In this document: positions 1-35,196 of the stretch, one piece after another | Layout: each line of letters begins with the position of its first letter | How positions within the stretch are numbered: position 1 is the first letter of the stretch | NCBI GenBank assembly: GCA_026400815.1 | Contig: JAPLOI010000065.1 | Coordinates: forward strand, 1-35,196 | Direction: 5' to 3' | Length of the DNA stretch: 35,196 nt | Source: Alphaproteobacteria bacterium | GTDB taxonomy: Bacteria; Pseudomonadota; Alphaproteobacteria; Acetobacterales; Acetobacteraceae | The notes under the pieces: model-generated | What the model was told of the DNA's origin: nothing | The model's database searches: none | Seen by the model: only the letters and a program-made list of their open reading frames with translations | Program-made: the position numbers and the translations under genes

Positions 1-111
1 CGGAACCGACGCCTGGCCCGCGATTTCGAGCGGCATTGCCGCATCGCCGCGGCCTTCGTGCGTATGGCGATGATCCGCATCATGCTGCGGAGACTGGCAT
101 CAAAGCCCTGA
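1..111 (+). mobile_element. IS5-family transposase, C-terminal end (partial)
   Basis: Frame 1 is open from the first base to a TGA at 109-111 and encodes 36 residues beginning RNRRLARDFERH and ending LRRLASKP. The arrangement 'NRRLA.DFE ... A..R.A.I.....RRLA.' just before the stop is the usual C-terminal tail of IS5-type DDE transposases. The rest of the gene lies left of the window. The terminal inverted repeat cannot be fixed because the left end is missing, but it should lie between about 112 and 150, at or next to the start of the following gene. The call rests on tail resemblance only. Confidence 0.7.
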
Positions 112-132
112 GCATGATGCAGAACTTCCCGG

Positions 133-933
133 ATGGGTTCTTACGTGCGAAATACAATTCTCAAGACAACAACAGCCCTTGCGGCATTGGTGGCCATCGG
201 GCTCGCGGCACCGGGTGCTGCCAAGGCGGACACCATCCAGCTGGGCTTCATCCTCGATGAGTCCGGCAGCATCTCCTCGTCCTCGTGGACCCAGATCACC
301 GGCGGGCTCGCCAACGCGATCAACACCCTGATCCCGATCGGTGGCCCGAACACCTATGAGATCTCGGTCGTCAAGTTCGATAACACGGCCGAAGTGGTGG
401 TGAACCGCCAAGTGGTGTCCACGGCGGCCCAGCGTACCGCGGTGGCCAACGCGGTCTCCGCGGCGTCGCAGGGGGGCGGGGCCACCAACTACCAGGTCGC
501 CTTCAACCTGATGCAGACTGTGCTGACCACCGGAGGCAACCTGCCCACGCTCTCCTTCGTGAACTTCGCGACGGACGGCGAGCCGAACCAGCCCAACAAC
601 GCCCAGGCGGCCGCGGTCACCGCGCGCAACGCCCTGATCGCGGCCGGCATCGACAATATCAGCATCGAGGGCATCGGCGTGAACGCCGCGGCCGCGAGCT
701 TCCTGCAGAACTCGATCTGCTACCCGGGCCCCTGCGATATCACGGCGCCATACAACTTCCCAGCGCAGGGCTTCTATATCGGCGTTGCCGATGCCCAGGG
801 CTATGTCAACGCCATCGGCAACAAGATCCAGGTGGTGACCCAGCAGCAGGTGCCGGAGCCCGCCAGCATGGCGCTGCTCGGCGCCGGCCTGCTGGGCCTG
901 GCGGCGCTGCGGCGCCGGGGGGCGAAGGCCTAG
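133..933 (+). CDS. von Willebrand factor A domain protein with PEP-CTERM sorting signal
   Basis: This 266-residue exported protein has a hydrophobic signal peptide (about residues 8-32, ending AAKA). A VWA fold follows, with the MIDAS metal motif DESGS (D42, S44, S46), a GGGATNY threonine segment and ATDGEPN as the third MIDAS loop. Two cysteines (CYPGPC) may pair. The C-terminus is a complete PEP-CTERM signal: VPEP from residue 240, a hydrophobic helix, then RRR. In known systems exosortase cleaves this signal and delivers the protein to the cell surface or matrix; no exosortase is in the window. VWA domains usually bind protein ligands through a divalent metal. The start is uncertain: ATG 133 has no clear ribosome site and lies where the upstream IS element should end. 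GTG 145 is an alternative that keeps the signal peptide. Confidence 0.88.
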   Translation: MGSYVRNTILKTTTALAALVAIGLAAPGAAKADTIQLGFILDESGSISSSSWTQITGGLANAINTLIPIGGPNTYEISVVKFDNTAEVVVNRQVVSTAAQRTAVANAVSAASQGGGATNYQVAFNLMQTVLTTGGNLPTLSFVNFATDGEPNQPNNAQAAAVTARNALIAAGIDNISIEGIGVNAAAASFLQNSICYPGPCDITAPYNFPAQGFYIGVADAQGYVNAIGNKIQVVTQQQVPEPASMALLGAGLLGLAALRRRGAKA

Positions 934-1081: not shown

Positions 1082-1098
1082 TTGGCACGGTGTTTGCT
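1082..1098 (+). promoter_or_regulatory. sigma-54 (RpoN) promoter
   Basis: TTGGCACG (1082-1089), four bases, then TTGCT (1094-1098) matches the -24/-12 consensus TTGGCACG-N4-TTGCW at every fixed position. The invariant GG (1084-1085) and GC (1096-1097) are exactly 10 bases apart. Transcription should start near 1109. No protein gene lies downstream on this strand, so the likely product is a short RNA ending at the terminator at 1214-1245. Confidence 0.75.
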
Positions 1099-1108
1099 TT
1101 GTAGTGGA

Positions 1109-1245
1109 ACACACGCACCGGTCTCCTGGTCCGTTTCGACGAAGGTGCTGTTTGCAGCCTTTCGTCTCCTGGTCCGGTTTGGGGTGCGTGAGACGATTTG
1201 AGGCGGGAGCGGGGGCCGCCGGCGCAAGCCGGCGGCCTCTTTTTT
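1109..1245 (+). ncRNA. candidate sigma-54-dependent small RNA with two CUCCUGG motifs
   Basis: A transcript of about 137 bases is bounded by the RpoN promoter and a strong intrinsic terminator. It contains an exact 13-base direct repeat, GTCTCCTGGTCCG, at 1121-1133 and 1164-1176. CACGCACC (1112-1119) pairs perfectly with GGTGCGTG (1183-1190), and a hairpin forms between the repeats (about 1138-1166, with GCTG/CAGC at its tip). The first CUCCUGG copy would then be largely unpaired and the second partly so. CUCCUGG is complementary to strong Shine-Dalgarno sequences; for example CTCCTGGT pairs for 8 bases with the ribosome site of the aldolase gene at 6561-6568. The overall plan recalls RpoN-dependent RNAs with repeated binding motifs such as Pseudomonas CrcZ and NrsZ, but I see no sequence relation. 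Expression is unproven. Confidence 0.6.
1214..1245 (+). terminator. strong intrinsic terminator
   Basis: A perfect 10-bp stem, GGCCGCCGGC/GCCGGCGGCC, with a GCAA tetraloop (1214-1237) is followed by TC and six T (1240-1245). The T-run follows the stem only on the + strand, so it does not serve the hydrolase gene ending at 1257 on the other strand. Confidence 0.85.
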
Positions 1246-3723: not shown

Positions 3724-5064
3724 TCAGGCCGCCTTGAGCGAGGTCATGAAGCCCGCCACCGCGCGCTGCAGCGTGGCGGCCTGGGTGGAAAGCTCCGTGG
3801 CGGCCTGCAGCACGGTGGCCGCGGCGTGCCCGGCTTCGCCCGCACCCTGATGCACGCCCGCGATCGTGGAACCGACATCGCCGGTGTGGCGCGCCGCCTC
3901 GTGCACGTTGCGGGCGATCTCGGCGGTGGCCGCGCCCTGCTCCTCCACCGCGGCTGCGATGGCGGTGGAAATGCTGCGGATCTCGCCGATCACGGCCGCG
4001 ATGCCCTGGATCGCGCCCACCGTCTCCTGCGTCGCGGTCTGGATATGGCCGATCTGGCGGCCGATCTCCTCCGTGGCGCGCGTGGTCTGCGTGGCCAGGG
4101 CCTTCACCTCGCTGGCCACGACTGCGAAGCCCTTGCCGGCCTCCCCGGCGCGCGCCGCCTCGATGGTGGCATTCAGCGCCAGCAGGTTGGTCTGCCCGGC
4201 GATGGAGCCGATCAGCCCCACCACGTCACCGATCCGCTGCGCGGCCTCGGAAAGGCGGCCCACCACGCCATCGGTGCGCTCGGCATCGTCGGCCGCGCGC
4301 GCGGCCACCTGGGTGGCCTGCGTCACCTGGCGCGAGATCTCGGAGATCGAGGCCGAAAGCTCCTCTGCCGCCGCGGCCACGGTGTGCACGTTGCCGCTCG
4401 CCTGCCCGGCCTGCTCGGCGGCGGAGGCGGCGCGGCTGGAGGTGTCGCTGGCGATCGCATCCAGGTTTTCCGCAGTGGCCTGCAACTCGGTGGAGGCCCC
4501 GGCGATGCCGGTCACCAGCCCGCTGGCCTCGCCGATGAACGCCTCGGAGGCCCGGGCCATCTGGTCCGTGCGCGCCTTCGCCTCGGAGGCGGCCTTGCCG
4601 TCGAGATAGACGGAGATCGCCACGTCCATGTCCATCATCACCGCCGTGGTCACCGCGGCTGCGGTCTCGGCGGTGCGGGTGGGGCTCATCCGGTGCGCCC
4701 GCGCGGCGAGGCGGATCAGCCGCTCCAGCACGTGGTTGTAGCCGGCGATGTACCAGCGCGGCTCCAGTCCGATCCGGGCATGCACCTCGCCGATGGTGCG
4801 CACGCTGGTGTGGTAGTCGTCGTCGAAGGCGCCGGAGAACAGCCGCGCCCAGTGCCGCCCCTGCGCCGCCTTCAGCCCGTCCACCCGCGTGCCGATCATC
4901 GCGGCCAGGGCCGGCGCGCTGCGGGCATGGGCGTAGAAGGAATCGAGGATCTCGGGCAGCGCCTTCTCCACGTGGGGCCAGAAGGCCCGCAGCGCCGTGC
5001 GGGTTTGCGGCGTGATGCCCATGAAGGCCACGCGCTGCTGCCAAGCGTCCATTTTCGGATCCAT
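3724..5064 (-). CDS. soluble globin-coupled methyl-accepting chemotaxis protein (HemAT-like)
   Basis: The protein has 446 residues and no membrane segment. Residues about 8-165 are a protoglobin sensor domain; the [16 protein letters not shown] segment carries the proximal heme ligand His95, and [12 protein letters not shown]...Y precedes it. The C-terminal half is a long coiled-coil signalling domain with the CheA/CheW-binding hairpin tip [19 protein letters not shown] (around residues 320-338). In HemAT proteins oxygen binding to the heme controls CheA; here the sensor would act in the cytoplasm. The start chosen is the ATG ending at 5064, with AGGAGG 10 bases upstream; Met5 is an alternative. 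No che genes are nearby. It is divergent from the small coiled-coil gene at 5215, sharing a 150-bp intergenic region. Confidence 0.92.
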
Positions 5065-5214: not shown

Positions 5215-5643
5215 ATGTCCGACATTTCCAGCGCCCGCATCATTCCCTTCCCCAGCCGGTCCGCGCCCGCGCCCCGGCCGGCCGCGCCCCAGCCTGCAGC
5301 GCCCCAGCCTGCAGCGCCCCAGTCTACAGCGCCCCAGCCTGCAGCTGTCGTGCCCGATCATCCCCCCGAAATGGACAACCCCACCGAGCGCCTGCAGCGC
5401 GCCCTGGCCGCGCTGGAGCGGGCCGTGGCGGCGCAGCGCGATGCGGTGGGCCAGTGGCGCGGCGCGCTGCAGGGCCTGCGCGGCAACGTGGAGGCGCTGC
5501 GCGGTTCGCTGACCGAATACGACCAGAGCCTCGGCACGCTGCGCGGCCAGGTGGACCATGTGAACCGAACCGCCCGCGGGTTGGAAAGCTGGGCTGACGG
5601 TGCGTTGGAAGCGGCGAAGGCGAAAGGTGATCAGCCGAAGTAG
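5215..5643 (+). CDS. small Ala/Pro-rich protein with C-terminal coiled coil, function unknown
   Basis: The ATG at 5215 has a perfect AGGAGG at 5203-5208. The 142-residue product has three parts: a short basic head (SDISSARIIPFPSRS), a low-complexity Pro/Ala linker with about four repeats of the pentapeptide AAPQP, and a predicted alpha-helical region (about residues 58-130) with heptad-like Leu/Val spacing. There is no signal peptide or membrane segment. I do not recognise a family. Its position divergent to the globin-coupled receptor suggests, without proof, a joint role. The 3' end overlaps the convergent PEP-mutase-like gene by 13 bases. Confidence 0.75.
   Translation: MSDISSARIIPFPSRSAPAPRPAAPQPAAPQPAAPQSTAPQPAAVVPDHPPEMDNPTERLQRALAALERAVAAQRDAVGQWRGALQGLRGNVEALRGSLTEYDQSLGTLRGQVDHVNRTARGLESWADGALEAAKAKGDQPK
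5284..5343 (+). repeat. four tandem 15-bp repeats inside the small coiled-coil gene
   Basis: The unit GCGCCCCAGCCTGCA is present four times in direct succession; the third copy has two substitutions. The unit is a multiple of three, so copy-number change would lengthen or shorten the Pro/Ala linker without shifting the frame. Confidence 0.9.
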
Positions 5644-6440
5644 CCGGTGATCTCCCCGCCCGGCAGCGAGGTGTCGATGTAGCCCATCGTGCCGCCCTGC
5701 TGCACTTCGCGTGCGGCCAGGATCAGACCGGTCATCGCGGCGCGATACAGCGAGGTGGCCAGGCTCACGCGCCGCACGCCGCAGGCCGCCAAATCCGGCA
5801 CGGTGTGGGAGCGCTTCGGGATCCCGGCCATGAAGTTGAACGGCTTCTTCAGCGCGGCGCACACGGTGCGCACGGCATCGAGGTCGGTCACCCCCGGGGC
5901 CATCAGCACATCCGCCCCGGCGGCCTCATAGGCCTGCAGCCGGCGAATGGTGTCATCCAGGTCCGTCACGCCACGCAGATGGTTCTCGGCACGGGCGGTC
6001 AGCACGAAGCCAGTGCCGCGCACTGCTTCCGCCGCCGCGGCGACGCGGGCCACGGCGAGGCCGAAGTCGTAGATCGGCCTGTCCTTGTCGCCGCTGGCAT
6101 CCTCGATCGAGCCGCCGGCCAGGCCGGTGGCCAGCGCCAGGCGGTAGGTCTCGGCGGCCTCCGCGGGCGAATCGGCGAAGCCTTTCTCCAGGTCGGCGGA
6201 GACCGGCAGGTCGGTGGCGGCCACCACATCGCGGGCGTGCTGCAAGGCTTCCTCGCGCGTCACCTGCCCGTCGCGCCGGCCCAGTATGCCGGCGCTGGCA
6301 CCGCTGGAGGTGGCCAGGGCCGGGAAGCCGAGTCCGGCCAGCACCTTGGCGGAGCCGGCATCCCAGGCATTTGCGATCACGAAGCACCCGCTCTCATGCA
6401 GGGCGCGGAAGGTGGCGATCTTTTCCTGCTGCGTGGCCAT
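5631..6440 (-). CDS. isocitrate lyase/PEP mutase-superfamily enzyme
   Basis: The 269-residue TIM-barrel protein starts at the ATG ending at 6440 (MATQQEK), with a GAGAGGA ribosome site 8 bases upstream. Family features are NAWDAGSAKVLAGLGFPALATSS, where DAGSA binds substrate, VSADLEKGFAD (metal-binding Asp/Glu), the GGSIEDASG strand and LTARAEN. It matches the PEP-mutase/oxaloacetate-decarboxylase-like group (Pfam PF13714), which includes carboxyphosphonoenolpyruvate mutase, methylisocitrate lyase and 2,3-dimethylmalate lyase relatives. Most uncharacterised members cleave C-C bonds of 2-oxo or 2-hydroxy acids. It lacks the KKCGH motif of true isocitrate lyase, so substrate is unknown. It is divergent from the Entner-Doudoroff-type operon at 6578, and the 137 bp between them must carry both promoters. 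Confidence 0.88.
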   Translation of the reverse strand: MATQQEKIATFRALHESGCFVIANAWDAGSAKVLAGLGFPALATSSGASAGILGRRDGQVTREEALQHARDVVAATDLPVSADLEKGFADSPAEAAETYRLALATGLAGGSIEDASGDKDRPIYDFGLAVARVAAAAEAVRGTGFVLTARAENHLRGVTDLDDTIRRLQAYEAAGADVLMAPGVTDLDAVRTVCAALKKPFNFMAGIPKRSHTVPDLAACGVRRVSLATSLYRAAMTGLILAAREVQQGGTMGYIDTSLPGGEITGYFG

Positions 6441-6577
6441 GGCGGCGGTCCTCTCCATTTTGGTCAGCCTCGCGCGCGGCGGCGGCGGCGGCAATCTCCA
6501 CCCGGTGCCGCAACGGCCAGACCACTCCTTGCCCAGGCGGGATGGCATGGTATCCCTGGCACCAGGAGGGCCCGCCG

Positions 6578-34481: not shown

Positions 34482-35196
34482 CTACAGGAAAAGCGCGTTC
34501 ACCTGCGCCGAGGTCATGGCCCCCAGCTGGGCCGTGGTGAACCCGGCCGTTTGCGTGCTCGAAAGCGCTGCGAGGTCGGCAGTTTCCAGCGACGCCACCT
34601 GCGCGGTGGTGAGCGCTGCGATCTGCGCCGTCTTGAAGCCAGCCATCTGGGATGTGCTGAGACCCACGAGCTGGCTGGTGGTCAGGGCGACCACCTGGGC
34701 GGTGGTCAGGTTGTTGATCTGCGACGTATCGAAGGCCCGCACCTGGGTGGTGGTAAGTGCGGCAAGGTCGGCGGTTTCCATGGCGACGAGCTGGGCCGTG
34801 GAGAGGGCCGCCACCTGGCCTGTCGTCAGCCCCGGCACCTGCGCCGTGGTGAGCGCCACCACCTGCGCGGTGGTGAGGCCCCTGACGCCGCCGGTGGAGA
34901 AGCCAGCGAGCTGGGTGGAGGAGAGCTGGCCGAGCTGCGCAGTGGTCAGTGCGGCCACCTGGGTGGAGGAGAGCGGGTTGAGCTGTGCGGTGCCGAAGCC
35001 GGCCATCTGCGCGGTGGTGAGGTTGGCCAACTGGGCGGTGGTCAGCCCAGCAATCTGGGTGGAGGCGAGGCCGGCCAACTGCGCGGTGGTGAGGTTTGCA
35101 ACCTGCGCGGTGGTGAGGCCAGAGACCTGGCTGGAGGCGAGGCCGCGCAGCTGGGCCGTGGAGAGGGCGGCCACGTCGGCGGTGTCCATCGCGGCC
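34482..35196 (-). CDS. octapeptide tandem-repeat protein (partial; N-terminus beyond window)
   Basis: The frame is open from the right edge to the TAG at 34482-34484. The visible 237 residues are about 29 consecutive octapeptides of consensus A-[AG]-L-[TS]-T-A-Q-[VL], plus a short tail NALFL. Residues upstream of the first visible Met continue the repeat in frame (AAMDTADV), so the true start lies outside. Units with Phe in position 3 and units ending TAD break the monotony. There are no cysteines, few charges and no signal sequence in the visible part. I do not recognise a characterised family. The regular 8-residue period with conserved Leu, Thr and Gln suggests a solenoid or fibrous fold and perhaps a surface or structural role, which is inference. 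Confidence 0.85.
   Translation of the reverse strand, partial: AAMDTADVAALSTAQLRGLASSQVSGLTTAQVANLTTAQLAGLASTQIAGLTTAQLANLTTAQMAGFGTAQLNPLSSTQVAALTTAQLGQLSSTQLAGFSTGGVRGLTTAQVVALTTAQVPGLTTGQVAALSTAQLVAMETADLAALTTTQVRAFDTSQINNLTTAQVVALTTSQLVGLSTSQMAGFKTAQIAALTTAQVASLETADLAALSSTQTAGFTTAQLGAMTSAQVNALFL

Follow-up and report, generated by a model that had tools for sequence, protein, structure and literature searches.

The window analysed here, a stretch of 35,196 nucleotides, is contig 78 of the 5.1-Mb draft genome (G000) of a freshwater bacterium. Near its start lies a forward-strand gene for a VWA-domain PEP-CTERM protein (145-933; Pfam VWA and PEP-CTERM), followed on the reverse strand by an alpha/beta hydrolase gene (1257-2300), which was assigned by family match and synteny and serves as the synteny anchor of the locus. 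Between the two, all on the forward strand, a sigma-54 (RpoN) promoter pattern, TGGCACGGTGTTTGC, occupies 1083-1097 and places the predicted +1 near 1109. The predicted noncoding RNA (1109-1246, about 138 nt) takes its start from the -12 element and its end from the terminator, and is convergent with the hydrolase gene. It comprises a 5' hairpin domain (1112-1190), a conserved linker, ATTTGAGGCGGGAGC (1196-1210), directly 5' of the terminator, and an intrinsic terminator (1211-1246), predicted as a 13-pair stem (1211-1240) followed by a T tract. The hairpin domain is built from a closing stem (1112-1119 with 1183-1190), an inner stem (1126-1133 with 1170-1177) and a central hairpin (1138-1166), and it contains two exact copies of a repeat, GTCTCCTGGTCCG, at 1121-1133 and 1164-1176. 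Upstream of the promoter, the core of PEP-CTERM box motif 1, CTTTACACCCTT (1013-1024), forms a predicted PrsR enhancer with TTTACA at 1014-1019.

An earlier note on this DNA had described an unreported sigma-54-dependent small RNA, and its structural account holds: the consensus promoter, the exact 13-base direct repeat and the strong terminator are all present, the 8-bp closing stem and the hairpin between the repeats both appear in the minimum-energy fold, and a scan of the whole window against Rfam gave no family at or above its gathering score. The TTTACA box, the PEP-CTERM neighbour and the conserved linker were absent from that account. The sequence thus supports a sigma-54 promoter from which a structured RNA, apparently noncoding and with its own terminator, would be made; a -24/-12 promoter and an intrinsic terminator are predicted to enclose a noncoding transcript. 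Small RNAs that an enhancer-binding protein activates at a sigma-54 promoter are familiar from Qrr/LuxO and CrcZ/CbrB; the present locus resembles these in its short terminated RNA and sigma-54 promoter but has a different activator, and no sequence relation is claimed. The noncoding assignment also stands, as no frame is conserved and 1-base indels separate the species. One frame beginning with GTG runs open from 1104 across the terminator, but these indels break it, it has no in-frame ATG before the terminator and it overlaps the terminator itself, and a small protein encoded at 1104-1250 is barely credible.

The minimum-energy fold of 1100-1250 reaches -78.4 kcal/mol (z -4.7), and none of 200 dinucleotide shuffles was as stable. 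Positions 1196-1202 of the linker are unpaired in this fold, and the rest of the linker may pair with the terminator tail. When the RNAs from the seven genomes that carry the gene were folded individually, all showed a 5' hairpin domain and a strong terminator hairpin; in G002 two adjacent hairpins replaced the shared closing stem, in G003 the linker folded on itself, and in some predictions the linker was partly paired. Covariation was assessed in five long versions of the RNA. Among these, 5 pairs of the named structure are changed at both bases, standard pairs make up 93.9% of it compared with 41-53% for slid versions, and its covariation score is 0.185 compared with 0.144 for shuffled alignments, with 2 of 500 shuffles as high. 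Further pair types in the same five versions were not above the shuffles (444/500), and the RNAalifold covariation term was slightly unfavourable (+0.32).

The sigma-54 pattern by itself is weak evidence, since the bare form TGGCACGNNNNTTGC occurs 12 times in the G000 genome and twice in the reversed control. The combination with the upstream box at a fixed distance is more specific. At the RNA locus the first base of TTTACA lies 69 bases 5' of TGGCACG, and 63 nt separate the end of TTTACA from TGGCACG. The description of the PEP-CTERM box in Haft 2006 (PMC1569441) gives a motif ending in TTTACA, a spacer with a mean of 62.8 nt (SD 10.6) and then a sigma-54 site; it attributes the box to PrsK/PrsR, reports for it the phylogenetic distribution of PrsK, PrsR and PrsT, and places the site 5' of 99 PEP-CTERM genes, out of 167 in proteobacteria, as well as of a small number of other genes. 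Rhodospirillum rubrum is named there as an alphaproteobacterium that has PrsK/PrsR and the box. The published motif has 17 bases, of which the six of TTTACA were compared here (PMC1569441). The RNA locus resembles that regulon in its TTTACA box, spacer of about 63 nt, sigma-54 site, genomic PrsK/PrsR/PrsT and PEP-CTERM neighbour; it differs in its product, which in the published description is mostly a PEP-CTERM protein and here is a transcript with no conserved ORF (PMC1569441). RpoN control of a PEP-CTERM gene has been addressed by experiment in Aquincola, where, in the account of pepA, RpoN1 dependence was shown and the upstream enhancer was predicted (PMC9850573); the promoter type is alike, but pepA is a protein gene in another bacterium, and no small RNA features in that account.

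Searched across the whole G000 genome, the pattern TTTACA-N(59-66)-TGGC-N7-TTGC, which had been derived from the RNA locus itself beforehand, occurs five times, and its reversed control does not occur. Three of the other four box-promoters lead within 40-70 bases into proteins with PEP-CTERM tails (L054, L056 and L057), and the fourth, at a contig edge, matches the VWA PEP-CTERM promoter of the sister genome G001. The genome encodes PrsR (625.6 bits; NCBIfam cut-off 502.6), PrsK (519.2 bits; cut-off 300) and PrsT (550.2 bits; cut-off 312.2) in one cluster with XrtA-associated chain-length and export genes, and it also encodes Hfq (112.1 bits; cut-off 61.7). The box architecture and the presence of PrsK, PrsR and PrsT suggest that the RNA gene is a noncoding member of the PEP-CTERM regulon, a membership that can be put forward with high confidence. 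The nitrogen, carbon or general RpoN control proposed in the earlier note is not supported, the promoter having the architecture assigned to PrsR.

In a survey of the family, the box-promoter pattern was found in 58 of 249 genomes and the reversed control in 1. Among the matches listed outside the genus, 111 of 129 lead into PEP-CTERM-type genes. Within a first set of 100 rows picked by hand, 83 were recognized by regular expression and 11 more by eye as truncated genes or PAP/PTP variants; at L174 the regular expression had matched the wrong frame, and the real frame has a PAP-type tail. The other 29 rows contain 17 PEP-type cases, including the variants L245 and L256. Further listed box-promoters lead to a response regulator (2; L109 and L129) or to other or unclear frames (5; L135, L161, L177, L180 and L251), have a frame cut by the end of the stretch (5; L244, L246, L253, L255 and L257), have too little 3' sequence (2; L240 and L259), or lie inside another open frame and are probably chance (4; L238 and L241-L243). 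Because 111 of the 129 listed matches are of PEP-CTERM type and none has an evidently noncoding product, the RNA is an unusual product for a box-promoter.

Some of the listed matches deserve mention on their own account. In G269 (L109, 240-983) and G028 (L129) the box-promoter precedes a response-regulator gene rather than a PEP-CTERM gene; a family search with L109 returned OmpR-type regulators below their cut-offs, and a relay out of the PEP-CTERM regulon in another genus is possible. Downstream of L180/L202 (G263:C36) and L251 (G186:C156), only short frames of 82 and 99 aa are found within the first 200 bases, and L180 and L251 may be additional members of the regulon with short or noncoding products.

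Within the genus, the RNA gene is found in seven of nine genomes, each time with 5' hairpin, linker and terminator and each time adjoining the same alpha/beta hydrolase gene. The terminator hairpin core and TGGCAYG-N4-TTGC are present in all seven. The promoter is present in seven of the eight genus genomes found to have the locus, with one core base different in G001; G005 has the hydrolase and VWA genes and neither promoter nor RNA gene, and the hydrolase locus was not found in G006, a genome that is 68% complete. The box 12-mer CTTTACACCCTT is invariant in six species and reads TTTACATCTTT in G003; the distance from the box start to TGGCAYG is 69 nt in six genomes and 68 in G003, and much of the spacer varies. 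Together with this 12-mer, the 15-base linker is the longest invariant run in the six species, and in G003 it is altered to ATTTCAGGCGAAGTC. Fourfold-site identity in the hydrolase gene is 0.55 between G000 and G008 and 0.40 between G000 and G003, and the invariance of linker and box despite the former value counts in favour of an RNA gene. The nominal 1e-4 for the linker is taken as support rather than proof and is not a clean p-value, since the 15-mer was picked after viewing the alignment. The RNA body evolves fast between the species, and the part 5' of the linker measures 91-93 nt in G000, G007, G001, G002 and G004 and 34-36 nt in G008 and G003; these changes in sequence and length, together with the absence from G005, count against a functional RNA.

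The RNA gene is convergent with the hydrolase gene in all seven genomes, so the transcript and its terminator might act locally, insulating or interfering with the hydrolase in a way to which the RNA sequence is irrelevant. Such a role appears very improbable, as the terminator comes before the hydrolase stop and leaves little overlap, in G005 the hydrolase is present and the promoter is not, and linker conservation and covariation would go unexplained.

The earlier note had tied its reading to a covariance search of relatives and to conservation of promoter, repeat and stems. Inside the genus, the seven members score 100-208 bits with Infernal against a model built from these same sequences; outside it, the best match of this seven-member model among 299 family genomes under Infernal's stricter filters reaches 29.4 bits. 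Some match at E 0.01 is found in 45 of the 299 genomes, and many of the weaker ones cover the promoter half only. An exact scan for linker plus terminator in named genomes returned three contigs, from a set possibly leaving out near relatives of the window. The promoter is kept in seven of the eight genomes with the locus and the stems covary in the five long versions, but the repeat is not conserved. A second contig-edge stretch in G004 (C312, 1-88; in L235) matches only the upstream part of the model, at 43.6 bits, and represents either an assembly overlap or a second copy.

Several candidate functions of the linker were tried and rejected. As an antisense sequence to PEP-CTERM ribosome sites, the linker performed no better than background (p 0.93). 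As an antisense sequence to PEP codons it paired well gene by gene, but among 100 shuffled linkers, for which the scan took coarser steps, 25 were equal to it. No seed complementarity to the linker was found among the PEP-CTERM genes examined. ATTTGAG occurs in the 3' UTR of the PEP-CTERM genes L226 and L233, that is, in 2 of 13 cases in the genus, and none of 200 first-order shuffle runs reached 2. A general 3'-UTR element was not borne out, with ATTTGAG in 2/13 genus and 1/78 other cases and TTGAG in 4/13 and 4/78, the latter being weak because the four genus cases seem to form a single set of related genes.

The VWA gene has its own box promoter in G001, G002 and G007. In G000, an insertion element separates the GTG start of this gene from its ribosome site (window 1-140; end of G000:C51, L191); it ends in ...CCGGATGGGTTC and GAGCCCATCCGG..., with TTA (or CTTA) on both sides. 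Judging from this insertion, the G000 VWA gene has probably lost the link to its own PrsR-type promoter. The RNA gene of G003 and G008 lies between the hydrolase and a phosphoribosyltransferase-like gene, a label read from the sequence by eye, and the VWA gene is absent from the locus in both. PEP-CTERM genes therefore come and go here, which is congenial to the main rival of a regulatory RNA, namely that a PEP-CTERM gene once stood at the locus and lost its coding region by deletion, leaving a stub of promoter, 5' leader and terminator that makes an inert short RNA. In the same direction point the near-constant association of box-promoters with PEP-CTERM genes among the family matches listed, the fast evolution and differing length of the RNA body, and the occurrence of ATTTGAG in 3' UTRs of L226 and L233 as well. 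On the other side, the box, the -24/-12 elements and the terminator are kept at 40-55% fourfold-site identity and the linker is identical at 55%, the RNA gene is retained in G003 and G008 even without the VWA gene, and covariation is seen in the long versions. The stub sits poorly with a conserved linker, box and promoter; we consider it unlikely, though it is the strongest competitor of a regulatory RNA.

The function that the earlier note proposed lay in the repeats, whose CUCCUGG motifs were read as anti-Shine-Dalgarno sequences. G000 and G007 carry two exact copies, and G001 has an exact copy 1 and a copy 2 with a single change; the copies are decayed in G002 and G004 and absent in G008 and G003. 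With the motif decayed or absent in four of seven genomes, the repeats are not the shared function, and the reading survives as lineage-specific at best. A repeat alone is also not exceptional, since the window has seven further places, besides an array at 34.8-35.2 kb, where a 13-mer recurs exactly and in direct orientation within 200 bases. In addition, the copies partly pair with each other in the minimum-energy fold (1126-1133 with 1170-1177), so that the motifs would be only partly exposed. The pairing with the aldolase and chemoreceptor ribosome sites to which the note had pointed is what any CUCCU motif would yield; the G000 sequence examined has 25 AGGAG-N-ATG sites, and CCAGGAG is found at 2 of them.

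The PEP-CTERM genes themselves provide a narrower case for the repeats. The ribosome site of L054, CCAGGAGAC, is a perfect 9-base complement of repeat 1, and the same site is found in its G002 relative L227 (the two being 53% identical) and in none of 96 start regions from other genera. GGAGAC is present in 5 of 14 PEP-CTERM start regions of the genus, 7 of the 96 from other genera and 3 of 53 other G000 genes. The mean repeat-1 energy is -19.9 for the 14 genus regions compared with -15.7 for the 96 others, with the G000 RNA used for all regions instead of each species' own and with orthologues among the 14, which are thus not independent. However, in G001 repeat 1 is kept and L226, the relative of L054, is without CCAGGAGAC, and G008 has GGAGAC without the repeat. 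When four PEP-CTERM start regions were compared with a background of 53, using start sites chosen by a crude script and the VWA start region of G001 because the G000 copy is interrupted, repeat 1 gave p 0.09, which is suggestive only, and repeat 2 gave p 0.64. Shuffled repeat-1 queries, run against 40 of the 53 background regions, gave 0/200, and this control favours any anti-Shine-Dalgarno sequence. Within the subclade, these sequences indicate that the repeats may matter for pairing with PEP-CTERM genes. A multi-target anti-Shine-Dalgarno RNA acting through both motifs under general RpoN (nitrogen/carbon) control would account for the exact motifs in G000 and G007 and for the distribution of CCAGGAGAC and GGAGAC, but is improbable given the loss of the motif elsewhere, the discordant L226 and G008, the two p-values, the self-pairing and an upstream box that is the PEP-CTERM one.

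Repeated anti-Shine-Dalgarno motifs are also characteristic of the alphaproteobacterial alpha-r14/cuckoo RNAs, which PMC10746234 describes with three hairpins and an ultraconserved unpaired CCUCCUCCC, and of which the characterized NfeR1 has sigma-70 promoter hexamers in that description. Here, by contrast with that description (PMC10746234), two unconserved CUCCUGG motifs flank one hairpin, and CCUCCUCCC is absent from the predicted transcript, which sets the RNA apart from that group.

On balance, the sequence evidence favours an RNA gene without protein product that belongs to the XrtA/PEP-CTERM (exosortase) regulon; the RNA would most likely act in trans in the same programme. In this scheme, the membrane kinase PrsK would activate PrsR, which would bind the predicted TTTACA box (1014-1019) and open the RpoN promoter (1083-1097). 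The RNA of about 138 nt, with its hairpin, AUUUGAGGCGGGAGC linker and terminator, would be made together with the PEP-CTERM surface proteins and might in trans, perhaps bound to Hfq, tune the PEP-CTERM programme. The first half of this scheme (PrsK/PrsR/RpoN) draws on sequence and published biology, and the second on analogy with small RNAs embedded in regulons, such as those of the sigma-E, LuxO and CbrB systems. For example, sigma-E small RNAs restrain outer-membrane proteins. By this analogy, a functional feedback RNA can be put forward tentatively. That the PrsR-driven RNA would hold back surface-protein translation, partly through pairing of GUCUCCUGG with CCAGGAGAC-type sites in part of the genus, is more specific and rather doubtful.

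Matrix and floc surfaces of bacteria are the work of the PEP-CTERM/exosortase system. Its presumed controllers are PrsK/PrsR, the signal for which was called obscure in 2006 (PMC1569441). The Desulfovibrio mapping in PMC3333781 lists the small RNA Dv_sRNA2, of unknown function there, as a target of the response regulator DVU0679, and maps the PEP-CTERM regulator DVUA0057 to PEP-CTERM genes, with no sRNA linked to DVUA0057 in that mapping. Dv_sRNA2 shares with the present case a two-component regulator with a small RNA output, but the regulator is another one; it is a precedent for the RNA output of a two-component system, not for the PEP-CTERM regulon (PMC3333781). The relevant passages of PMC8092127 mention PEP-CTERM genes and a tyrT-derived sRNA separately, and no small RNA tied to PEP-CTERM control was found in the text available from the open-access full-text literature searched. 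A noncoding PrsR output, if true, would extend to RNA a regulon whose known members are mainly protein genes, and would provide a compact reporter for PrsR activity. A feedback RNA, if true, would cap or time matrix-protein output and be the first riboregulator in the PEP-CTERM regulon found in the open-access literature searched.

Other features of the window include a reverse-strand chemoreceptor gene (3724-5064) with a protoglobin sensor domain, that is, a globin-coupled MCP. Between this gene and a PEP mutase-family gene (5631-6548), five 15-base tandem copies (GCGCCCCAGCCTGCA) occupy 5269-5345. At the far end of the window, a reverse-strand gene (34482-35186) encodes a protein composed largely of ALTTAQ repeats (Pfam PF20080, 8 stretches), and its DNA has a 24-base tandem periodicity.
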